From NCBI RefSeq assembly GCF_029223255.1, contig NZ_JARHUC010000004.1:372001-436000 (forward strand): 64,000 nucleotides of DNA, given 5' to 3'. Source of the stretch: Albimonas marina (GTDB lineage: Bacteria; Pseudomonadota; Alphaproteobacteria; Rhodobacterales; Rhodobacteraceae). This document shows positions 1 through 33,572 of this stretch, in pieces (within the stretch, counting starts at the first letter, position 1; each line of letters opens with the position of its first letter). The translations under genes and the position numbers were made by a program. The notes under the pieces were generated by a model. That model was not told the DNA's origin and made no database searches. It saw only the letters and a program-made list of their open reading frames with translations.

Positions 1-373
1 CGCCGGCCATGCCCGCCAGCGCCCGGGCGAAGACCAGCAGCCACAGGCTCTGCGCCGCCGCGGCGATCAGGTAGTCGAGCGCCAGCATCCCCAGCGCCGC
101 CAGCAGCACCGGCCGGCGGCCGAAGCGGTCCGACAGGTCCCCCAGCAGGGGTCCGCACAGGAACATCGCCGCCGCGTAGGCGAAGGTCATCCAGCCGCCC
201 CAGGGCGCCGCCTCCGCCGCCGAGAGCCCGGCGATCCCCGCCAGCAGCTCCGGGATCGCGGGCATCACCAGGCCGATGCCCATCGCGTCCACCGCCACCA
301 CGCCCACCGCGAAGGCGATGCCGCGGCGGGGCGCCCCGGCGGGGGCGAGGGAGGGGGAGGGGGCGGAGCTCAT
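1..373 (-). CDS. MFS drug-type exporter, N-terminal part (runs off window)
   Basis: Only the first ~124 residues are inside the window; the gene continues past position 1. The protein starts at an ATG at 373 and shows a hydrophobic first helix (about residues 19-43) with the sequence DAMGIGLVMPAIPELL, then helix 2 followed by GDLSDRFGRRP (about 78-88), which is MFS motif A in the loop between helices 2 and 3. This pattern is typical of the DHA1 branch (TetA and Bcr/CflA-like exporters), proton-driven inner-membrane efflux pumps. The substrate cannot be told from this fragment. The first 15 residues are a Pro/Ala-rich cytoplasmic tail, and no strong ribosome-binding site is seen upstream. Confidence 0.85.
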   Translation of the reverse strand, partial: MSSAPSPSLAPAGAPRRGIAFAVGVVAVDAMGIGLVMPAIPELLAGIAGLSAAEAAPWGGWMTFAYAAAMFLCGPLLGDLSDRFGRRPVLLAALGMLALDYLIAAAAQSLWLLVFARALAGMAG

Positions 374-31979: not shown

Positions 31980-32402
31980 CTACTCATCGCTCCCCGGCGA
32001 CTGGCGCAACGCCTTGACCTCGCCTCGCCGCGTCTTCGCGGCGAGGCGTCTTTTTTGCGAGCCCAGCGTGGGCCGGGTGGCGATGCGCTTCTTGGGCCGC
32101 TCCAGCGACTTGGCCACCAGCTCGGCGAGGCGCGCGCGCGCCTCCTCCCGGTTGCGGGCCTGGGAGCGGTGGGTCTCCGCCCGGATGATCAGCGCGCCGT
32201 CCGCCGTCCAGCGCCGCCCTGCCAGCCGGCGCAGGCGGGCCTTGGCGTCGGGCGGCAGGTTGGGGGAGCGGGCGGCCTCGAACCGCAGCTCGACCGCGCT
32301 GGAGACCTTGTTCACGTTCTGCCCGCCGGGCCCGGAGGCGCGGGTGAAGTGCTCGGTCAGCTCCCAGTCGGCGAGGGTTACGGCGTCGGTGATGCGGAGC
32401 AT
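31980..32402 (-). CDS. arfB: Alternative ribosome-rescue factor ArfB (YaeJ)
   Basis: 140 residues, the same length as E. coli ArfB. GPGGQNVNK is the catalytic GGQ loop that hydrolyses peptidyl-tRNA on ribosomes stalled at mRNA ends. The basic C-terminal tail (SLERPKKRIATRPTLGSQKRRLAAKTRRGEVKALR, in parts) inserts into the empty mRNA channel. ATG 32402 is chosen by homologue length; an in-frame ATG at 32495 would add a Pro/Ala-rich 31 residues. The last codons carry a perfect 11-bp hairpin (32022-32047), which is also the terminator of the convergent pfpI. Confidence 0.93.
   Translation of the reverse strand: MLRITDAVTLADWELTEHFTRASGPGGQNVNKVSSAVELRFEAARSPNLPPDAKARLRRLAGRRWTADGALIIRAETHRSQARNREEARARLAELVAKSLERPKKRIATRPTLGSQKRRLAAKTRRGEVKALRQSPGSDE
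32022..32056 (+). terminator. pfpI terminator embedded in the arfB coding sequence
   Basis: A perfect 11-bp stem (32022-32032 with 32037-32047), loop TCTT, followed by GTC and six T on the plus strand. It lies 70 bases past the pfpI stop, but within the last ~25 codons of arfB on the other strand. In the arfB mRNA it forms the same hairpin with loop AAGA and no T run. Confidence 0.9.
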
Positions 32403-32658: not shown

Positions 32659-32695
32659 CCCGAAAACGGAAGGACCGCGGCTTTCGCCGCGGTCC
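32659..32695 (-). terminator. Terminator of the 18-codon microgene
   Basis: A perfect 10-bp stem (32672-32681 with 32686-32695), with a GAAA tetraloop on the minus strand, followed by TTCCGTTTTC. It lies 75 bases past the micro-ORF stop, with no other minus-strand gene ending nearby. Confidence 0.8.
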
Positions 32696-32769
32696 CGTGA
32701 GCCGTGGAGCCTCAGGCGGGCAGGGACTGAACCCCTCGCGCCCGAAGCGTCGGAAAAGGAGGCTGCCCC

Positions 32770-32826
32770 TTAGGCGATCACCTCGAACGTGAACCCGACC
32801 TTCAGCTCCAACGTATCACTCGACAT
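32770..32826 (-). CDS. Candidate 18-residue micropeptide gene with perfect Shine-Dalgarno
   Basis: The frame encodes MSSDTLELKVGFTFEVIA and ends in TAA. It is preceded by GAAAGGAGGTGATCCA, the complete complement of the 16S rRNA 3' tail, with AGGAGG seven bases from the ATG. A strong terminator follows 75 bases later, so the transcript would be about 150-250 nt. It lies between the queuosine-precursor transporter and arfB, on the same strand as both. The composition (A/T-richer than neighbours) supports a real unit. No family is recognised. It could be a secreted or regulatory peptide, a leader peptide, or a small RNA whose anti-16S sequence itself has a role. Confidence 0.6.
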   Translation of the reverse strand: MSSDTLELKVGFTFEVIA

Positions 32827-32842
32827 TGGATCACCTCCTTTC
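32827..32842 (-). promoter_or_regulatory. Fully extended Shine-Dalgarno sequence
   Basis: GAAAGGAGGTGATCCA on the minus strand pairs with essentially the whole single-stranded 3' end of 16S rRNA. Other genes in this window show only 5-8 paired bases, so this is exceptional. Upstream on the same strand is a T6 run (32896-32901) and no clear -10/-35. Confidence 0.85.
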
Positions 32843-32951: not shown

Positions 32952-33572
32952 TCAGGCCCGCTGGCCGCGCGGGCCCATCAGCGACAGCGCCGCGCGGAAG
33001 GGCGCCAGCGCCAGCAGGGCGAGCGCCATCTTCACCCCGAAGTCCGCCAGCGCCAGGCTGATCCACAGCGGGACCGGCCGGCCGACGCCCAGCACCGGAA
33101 CCAGCTCGTTCGCCCAGGCGACGTCCTCCCAGGGCGCGAGCGGAGTCAGCCAGGCCGAGAAGGCCAGCGTGAAGAAGATCGCCGTGTCCGTCGCAGAGCC
33201 GATCAGGGAGGAGACCAGCGGCGCGCGCCACCAGGATTCGCCCCGCAGCCGGTCGAAGACGCCCACGTCCAGCATCTGCGCGACCAGGAAGGCGAGGCCC
33301 GAGGCGGCGGCGATGCGCAGCGTGGTGGCGCCGAAGCCCGCCGCGACCAGGCTGCACGCGACCCCCGCCGCGAAGCCCGCCAGCACCACCTTGCGCGCCG
33401 CCTGCGGACCCATCGCGCGGTTGGTCAGGTCTGTCACCAGGAAGGCGATGGGATAGGTCAGCGCCCCCCAGGTCAGCCAGTCGCCCAGCAGGTGCTGCAC
33501 GAGGATGTTGGAGGCGACGACGGTCGCCGTCATGGCGATGGCGCCGATGATCAGGCCGCGGGAGCGGGTCAT
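32952..33572 (-). CDS. yhhQ: Queuosine precursor transporter (YhhQ/VUT family)
   Basis: 206 residues with about six membrane helices. The family signature is ILVQHLLGDWLTWGALTYPIAFLVTDLTNRAMGP near the N-terminus, then AFLVAQMLDVGVFDRLR and SSLIGSATDTAIFFTLAF. YhhQ imports preQ0/preQ1 for queuosine tRNA modification. Proteins of this family are often mis-annotated as integral membrane or ACR domain proteins. No preQ1 riboswitch consensus was found upstream. It sits downstream of gapR, separated by a terminator. Confidence 0.92.
   Translation of the reverse strand: MTRSRGLIIGAIAMTATVVASNILVQHLLGDWLTWGALTYPIAFLVTDLTNRAMGPQAARKVVLAGFAAGVACSLVAAGFGATTLRIAAASGLAFLVAQMLDVGVFDRLRGESWWRAPLVSSLIGSATDTAIFFTLAFSAWLTPLAPWEDVAWANELVPVLGVGRPVPLWISLALADFGVKMALALLALAPFRAALSLMGPRGQRA

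Follow-up and report, generated by a model that had tools for sequence, protein, structure and literature searches.

An 18-codon micro-ORF behind a complement of the whole 16S rRNA tail in Albimonas marina, on an apparent distant relative of the CC2171 RNA family

The window analysed here, a 64,000-nucleotide stretch of the Albimonas marina genome, carries on its minus strand a micro-ORF of 18 codons between yhhQ and arfB. The extended Shine-Dalgarno (SD) sequence GAAAGGAGGTGATCCA and the ATG occupy 32842-32824, and the TAA stop codon lies at 32772-32770. The first-pass annotation of this DNA had described a tiny frame with a stop codon and its own strong terminator, and the coordinates and the terminator, with its 11-pair stem, check out. 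The locus contains:

32952..33572, minus strand: yhhQ, the upstream neighbour (Pfam Vut_1), anchor for the synteny scan
32827..32842, minus strand: extended SD GAAAGGAGGTGATCCA, complement of the entire single-stranded 16S tail UGGAUCACCUCCUUUC, predicted duplex -29.6 kcal/mol
32770..32826, minus strand: micro-ORF of 18 codons, peptide MSSDTLELKVGFTFEVIA, ATG at 32826, TAA stop, from the frame as read and the codon-19 and synonymous tests
32671..32696, minus strand: intrinsic terminator hairpin, 11-pair stem (9 G-C), T-containing tail to ~32663
31980..32402, minus strand: arfB, the downstream neighbour, RF-1 domain, named from homology

The peptide is identical in a relative of the same genus (G001). 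In a third Albimonas (locus L003 of G002), gapR directly precedes the RNA and arfB follows it; no yhhQ match was found there in the sequence stretch examined around the RNA. No consensus promoter was found in the 64-kb window; among relatives, up to 53 of 76 loci carry TTG[AC] at a distance of ~63-66 nt before the start.

The 16 bases of GAAAGGAGGTGATCCA are the exact complement of the 16S tail beyond helix 45, as read in a relative. They form the longest run complementary to the 16S reference in the window, the next best having 10 bases, and the 15-base word GGATCACCTCCTTTC, searched on both strands, occurs a single time in the whole genome, at the micro-ORF. The 3' end of the Albimonas 16S itself was looked for in the assembly and not found. 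The tail was instead read at locus L176 of a genome of the same family, G004 (GCGGCTGGATCACCTCCTTTCTAAGG), and it is to this related 16S that the 16 matched bases refer. Against that tail the match is perfect, as the first-pass annotation had claimed, and it is indeed far longer than elsewhere in the window (16 versus 10). Of 15 genomes searched for the 16S 3'-end word, single-contig ones among them, just one had it; rRNA was thus apparently left out of, or is absent from, these assemblies. Several Rhodobacterales without the GATCC part of the match keep GAAAGGAGGTG and the 18-codon ORF, so the full 16-base match is not essential there. Full-tail pairing is common but dispensable, and a view of it as an indispensable feature had to be given up, since the lineages lacking GATCC still have the 18 codons.

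Of 149 family genomes, 109 contain the exact signature AAAGGAGGTGRTCNNRTG a single time each; the 289 class genomes yielded 63 occurrences in 62 of them, and the reversed control gave none in either set. One class genome (G036) contains it twice and the remaining 61 positive ones once each. In a draw from the phylum, it was present in 16 of 31 alphaproteobacteria and 1 of 89 others (counted by eye). A sequence-only model of the SD and ORF, R1, matched 136 of the 149 family genomes. In a draw of 61 genomes from the order, all of the same family, it matched 59; the model was built from 37 sequences, some of them out of the family genomes later searched. A scan anchored on yhhQ yielded 66 loci, 45 of them with the SD and ORF downstream of yhhQ, and three further ones (L015, L018 and L055) were recovered by the model. 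The expectation that the micro-ORF would adjoin yhhQ and arfB in other Rhodobacterales was thereby borne out, with arfB near the RNA in 32 of 47 loci.

The 76 Rhodobacterales loci and the 47 loci used for arfB context were chosen by GGAGGTG[AG]TC, a fixed start spacing and a frame of <=45 codons; the invariance of those bases is therefore built in, which does not hold for the GAAA beside them or for the precise length of the ORF. The SD did not mutate freely across the Rhodobacterales loci compared, nor was the frame lost (18 codons in 93 of 99 loci, with the codon-19 and synonymous tests below), two of the outcomes that the first-pass annotation had named as fatal to its proposal. For loci without the exact signature, starts 8-15 nt after GGAGG were picked by pairing energy, with extra credit for TTGGA, and frames had to span 12-40 codons; 20 of the R1-positive, signature-less genomes were examined, not all, and two of these (L213 and L222), as well as L224, depart from the signature only upstream of GGAGG. 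Two class genomes (L240 and L241) carry a 14-codon version, MS[YF]xKRCHLAGIAR, behind the same SD block, the shortest ORF beside the signature.

ORF length is strikingly uniform in Rhodobacterales: 18 codons in 70 of 76 loci, 20 in four and 24 in two. All 20 signature-less genomes and L015, L018 and L055 have 18 codons, even where the length of the SD-start spacer is altered, which gives the combined figure of 93 of 99 (L226 has 18 codons counted from GTG and 25 from an upstream TTG). Codon 19, taken over 70 distinct sequences from the 76 loci whatever their ORF length, reads TGA in 28, TAG in 23, TAA in 14 and another codon in 5; a stop is thus found in 65 of 70, and the maximum under shuffled columns was 61. 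TGG was never observed at this position, against 10.8 expected if the third column were independent (0 of 10,000 permutations), nor in the wider set of 92 distinct sequences from 99 loci, where 13.5 were expected. No distinct sequence has a stop within codons 2-18, while the shifted frames are often stopped within the same stretch. Across codons 2-12 the synonymous fraction was 0.486, compared with 0.245 under column shuffling (0/200); codons 13-18 gave no protein-level signal, 130 of 200 shuffles being as high. The most frequent residues are L6 (58/65), E7 (63/65), V10 (56/65), G11 (61/65) and T12 (56/65).

Among the best 30 loci matching the Rfam family RF01867 in other orders (see below), the first stop in frame 0 falls at codon 18-30 in 30 of 30, and the other two frames stop in that range in only 2 and 7 of 30. 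The peptides of these 30 loci, 18-30 aa long, share little past MS. Our swap, permutation and column statistics treat loci as independent of phylogeny, and RNA structure constrains codons too. The element is a conserved micro-ORF and more than chance; by these comparisons its reading frame and stop codon are under selection, and we infer that the 18 codons are read by ribosomes.

An Rfam search at default settings returned no match. A sensitive search of 361 bases aligned the element over model positions 1-159 of 159 of RF01867 (caulobacter sRNA CC2171) with an E value of 3.3e-6; its 35.9 bits did not reach the gathering threshold of 75 bits, and the layout of the family, an SD block and a terminator, is present. 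On the class genomes the same model matched 69 of 289 at E <= 0.01, 9 of them above its own cut-off, and 53 of the 63 exact class signatures coincide with these matches (by eye). The best 30 RF01867 loci all have an SD and an ORF of 18-30 codons. The element is a distant relative of CC2171 rather than the isolated microgene that had been proposed. Both have the GAAAGGAGGUGAUCCA block and end in a terminator. CC2171 carries the Rfam type 'Gene; sRNA', whereas the frame tests here indicate coding, and Rhodobacterales differ further by an extra 3' anti-SD and by an ORF held at 18 codons in most loci. The Moco riboswitch model was also hit and was rejected, at 25.3 bits against a cut-off of 36 and over model positions 59-112 of 135 only, mainly the terminator hairpin.

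In the parts of the sources at hand, CC2171 figures among the families with improved structure in Rfam 15 (PMC11701678) and with one locus in a Mesorhizobium survey (PMC5596092). No literature treating CC2171 together with Caulobacter was found, mentions of RF01867 being family listings in the portions available. A description of a coding CC2171 or of a 16S-tail mimic was likewise not found; the original Landt 2008 lay outside the search and may contain more. Schrader 2014, as far as excerpted, states that Caulobacter ncRNA regions, as a group, are not translated (PMC4117421), which would count against translation if valid for the CC2171 locus. The accessible part of a Sinorhizobium Ribo-seq study places 33% of its 54 newly found translated sORFs on annotated sRNAs (PMC10117765).

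Terminator calls were obtained at 75 of the 76 Rhodobacterales loci and at 40 of the 42 others; at least two of them (L005 and L126) are visibly miscalled, and in loci of regular layout the distance from SD to RNA end is ~145-200 nt. The consensus fold that RNAalifold predicted from 45 sequences has three elements: a helix of SD with anti-SD, a hairpin at the start codon (UCCAGUGU with AUAUUGGA) and the terminator. A short helix between codons 10-11 and CYGR joins them. The conserved 3' segment of most Rhodobacterales typically reads CTAACYGRCC and then C[AG][CT]CTCC, 35-73 nt after the stop; the strict C[AG][CT]CTCC motif precedes the terminator in 60 of 76 loci and can pair with GGAGGTG by Watson-Crick or G-U pairs.

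When own partners were compared with swapped ones, the start hairpin gave z -5.5 (0/5000, 63 distinct pairs; for example, CCTG/CAGG in L015). The whole SD spacer covaries modestly with the anti-SD flank (z -2.9, 57 distinct pairs, 6/5000), and so does SD position 8 with the base opposite it. Five near-identical loci of 99 were removed for these two tests, and among the 80 motif loci of the spacer test at least two (L214 and L221) took the terminator segment and not the visible GCACCTCC. The loci compared show no variation in GGAGGTG itself, which leaves the core helix of SD and anti-SD unable to covary. The SD x pre-terminator pairing of Rhodobacterales gave z -4.9 (n=70), with a mean of -17.3 versus -9.5 in other orders. 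The pairing of the ORF 3' half with the region after the stop in Rhodobacterales gave z -10.2 and -12.0 (n=69), codons 10-15 with the 3' region standing at z -12.0 (n=69); the ORF 3' half segments gave z -0.1 (codons 13-stop x +1..40) and -2.2 in other orders. There, codons 2-7 pair with 20 bases at the terminator, at -10.95 kcal/mol with own and -7.26 kcal/mol with swapped partners (z -7.3, n=28; control segment z -0.7, n=28); the corresponding pairing with the pre-terminator (P1) in Rhodobacterales was not significant alone (z -0.9, n=70). In several other-order loci (e.g. L071, L072, L073, L077, L083 and L095), an ORF-internal CTGGATCnTCGCCTC-like stretch pairs with the SD at -17.7 to -20.7. 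The MFE fold of one relative, L024, pairs both the SD and the start codon (z -4.6).

The swap tests of codons 2-7 and of the SD with the pre-terminator used 70 of the 76 Rhodobacterales loci, leaving out near-duplicates (L004, L007, L153 and L175), the miscalled L005 and L042, for which no terminator was called; the ORF 3'-half pairing and shuffle tests also omitted L010 (n=69). Of the 42 non-Rhodobacterales loci, 28 entered the swap test of codons 2-7: nine were set aside by judgement for an odd or unclear layout (L097, L098, L116, L124, L126, L136, L140, L141 and L143), four as near-duplicates (L080, L082, L088 and L131), and L070 was without a terminator call.

In the window itself, the following segments are predicted to pair:

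32823..32830, minus strand: 5' strand of the start-codon hairpin, UCCAAUGU (SD end and AUG), predicted -9.6 kcal/mol, from the consensus fold and partner swap
32807..32814, minus strand: 3' strand of the start-codon hairpin, ACGUUGGA (codons 5-7), its bases also used by the alternative helix P1
32807..32819, minus strand: 5' strand of the long-range helix P1, codons 3-7, from the window MFE; the corresponding helix covaries in other orders
32697..32708, minus strand: 3' strand of P1, TCCACGGCTCAC, adjoining the terminator, from the window MFE fold and other-order covariation
32752..32766, minus strand: post-stop GCAGCCTCCTTTTCC, SD-complementary, predicted -19.0 kcal/mol with the SD; its MFE partner is codons 15-18
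32773..32784, minus strand: SD-like GAGGTGATCGCC in the ORF end, MFE partner of the post-stop segment

As regards the helices that bear on internal closure, the MFE fold of the window RNA (z -5.1) leaves the SD largely open and P1 closed, through the same UUGGA that serves the start hairpin. The post-stop CCTCCTTTTCC is a possible Albimonas counterpart of the anti-SD of its relatives. A second SD-like stretch, GAGGTGATC (32784-32773, minus strand), is paired in the MFE fold with the post-stop CCTCC and is an alternative to the real SD as its partner; in the modelled folds, the choice of CCTCC between the two is a possible two-state switch.

Predicted energies place the SD:16S duplex above the pairing of the SD with its own RNA in 75 of 75 loci (means -29.7 versus -18.2), a bare GGAGG contact being predicted at -12.2. 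Compared with dinucleotide shuffles, the affinity of the SD for its own RNA was moderately elevated in Rhodobacterales (mean z -1.97, 31 of 69 below -2); in other orders the mean z was -1.18, with 9 of 28 below -2.

The match to the full 16S end suggests a ribosome-responsive RNA, not a plain non-coding one. The reading towards which we lean, tentatively and short of conviction, is an independent small mRNA, or a dual-function RNA, with an SD and start codon that would be shut internally and opened by 30S pairing. A small RNA gene of ~180-200 nt would act as a tiny mRNA; it has a terminator of its own, and in relatives a promoter-like -35 stands at a constant distance. In this RNA, UUGGA in codons 6-7 would pair with UCCA at the SD end and with the start codon. 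The segment C-A/G-C/U-CUCC before the terminator of most Rhodobacterales would pair with GGAGGUG; in Albimonas the post-stop CCUCC segment could pair with the SD GGAGGUG, and in part of the other orders the ORF-internal CTGGATCnTCGCCTC could take the anti-SD role. Between them, the UUGGA and CACCUCC segments mimic both halves of the 16S tail UGGAUCACCUCC. Such an internal mimic (~-18 kcal/mol) should beat a bare SD contact (~-12) and lose to the full 16S tail (~-30), an order of affinities from which the RNA would be expected to open upon pairing with a free 30S subunit of intact tail. The fold would then be unwound by translation, and the functional event would be this ribosome-dependent opening, with the peptide sequence secondary. 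We infer switching, translation and the direction of the effect. The fixed ORF length, the freely changing C-terminus and the near lack of peptide sequence shared between orders suggest that being translated counts for more than the product made; what speaks most strongly against this view is the N-terminal constraint in Rhodobacterales.

That constraint is also what gives some weight to a functional micropeptide, in which the 18-aa product (MSRxILERGVGT... in many Rhodobacterales) would act and the fold only tune its synthesis. The excess of synonymous change in codons 2-12, the frequent L6, E7, V10, G11 and T12 and the 18 codons in 93 of 99 loci speak for it, but codons 13-18 lack the protein-level signal, peptides outside Rhodobacterales share little past MS among the best 30 RF01867 loci, and the conserved N-terminal codons double as helix strands, codons 5-7 for the start hairpin and codons 2-7 for the P1 helix of other orders. 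We regard it as a serious contender, though a doubtful one. The stronger proposal of a highly translated micropeptide is not borne out, given that the consensus fold of the relatives pairs the SD and start internally and that the C-terminal third of the peptide shows no constraint at the protein level. 30S sensing or sequestering is a possibility that the internal 16S-tail mimic favours. As a ribosome-sensing RNA widespread in alphaproteobacteria, the element would set its SD against a two-part tail mimic (UUGGA and CACCUCC), read out those free 30S subunits whose 3' end is intact and relay that state; opening would proceed through translation of the fixed-length micro-ORF, and the relay could consist of the freed anti-SD segment, decay of the RNA itself or, in Rhodobacterales, read-through into arfB. 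We think this specific version unlikely, if worth keeping in view. A base-pairing sRNA, with CACCUCC as an anti-SD repressing mRNAs and the SD and ORF as internal cap, ribosome handle or decoy, would account for the strict motif in 60 of 76 loci and has parallels in relatives, where the available text describes anti-SD loop sRNAs (CCUCCUCCC in SmelA075, aSD motifs in R. sphaeroides RS0680a; PMC3927594). It sits badly with a frame and stop codon under selection and with the weak SD x pre-terminator pairing in other orders, and we judge it improbable.

The neighbourhood of arfB invites yet another reading, a cis leader whose terminator is an attenuator and whose micro-ORF translation sets read-through into this ribosome-rescue gene. 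arfB was found at 34 of 47 loci; it lies on the same strand, ~350 nt or less after the terminator, in 32 of 47 and within 90 nt in 25 (starts extrapolated from tblastn), which leaves scant room for a separate promoter. Against this, the RNA is kept at 13 of 47 loci, 11 of them Paracoccus, where arfB was not found in the stretch examined, and the loci examined in the other orders differ in their neighbours, with no arfB detected within 1.5 kb. No downstream gene conserved in cis, as a leader-peptide attenuator would have, was found, and the sole antiterminator candidate, the post-stop region x the terminator 5' stem, was rejected, as it showed no covariation (z +1.7). With arfB variable and the neighbours differing between orders, the element is better seen as an autonomous gene, in Rhodobacterales often ahead of arfB; a role solely as arfB leader was rejected on the loci where the RNA occurs without arfB in the stretch examined, and we give the leader reading very little probability. 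Short frames are common, and an SD-like stretch could stand ahead of a random one, but conservation and the frame tests contradict such a coincidence, which we consider next to impossible.

Several described systems resemble parts of this RNA. Pos19 (RSs0019) of Rhodobacter sphaeroides is, in the portion of its report at hand, a 219-nt alphaproteobacterial sRNA with a translated sORF; likened here by description, it differs in its 150-nt ORF, its RpoE dependence and a translation that survives SD mutations (PMC5036791). In Staphylococcus aureus, SD-16S pairing extends past the core towards the start codon and, according to the accessible text, may be simply productive; there it amounts to two extra pairs in the structure and is predicted for ~30% of initiation sites (PMC13009471), whereas the micro-ORF RNA has 16 contiguous pairs in essentially one gene per genome. 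rnTrpL/peTrpL of Sinorhizobium likewise has a tiny ORF (14 aa) on an attenuator-derived dual-function sRNA, but it is leaderless and tied to trpE, as far as the source excerpt goes (PMC10117765), and the SD of the micro-ORF RNA is extreme and the gene behind it is not conserved between orders. An RNA present in 136 of 149 genomes of a large alphaproteobacterial family and kin to an Rfam sRNA seems to be a minimal mRNA whose length and frame are strictly selected, in a class whose model species, Caulobacter, starts 75.4% of its genes without an SD (PMC4117421, in the part available). Should the SD and the tail mimic really compete, the element would be a compact sensor, either of free 30S subunits or of the integrity of the 16S 3' end, and would provide a natural example of how extreme SD strength is employed.

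Many of the non-Rhodobacterales peptides (loci L070-L099) start with MSHCH. Since the CATTGTC of these codons pairs with a GACAATG at the terminator, the RNA rather than metal binding may be what drives this motif.
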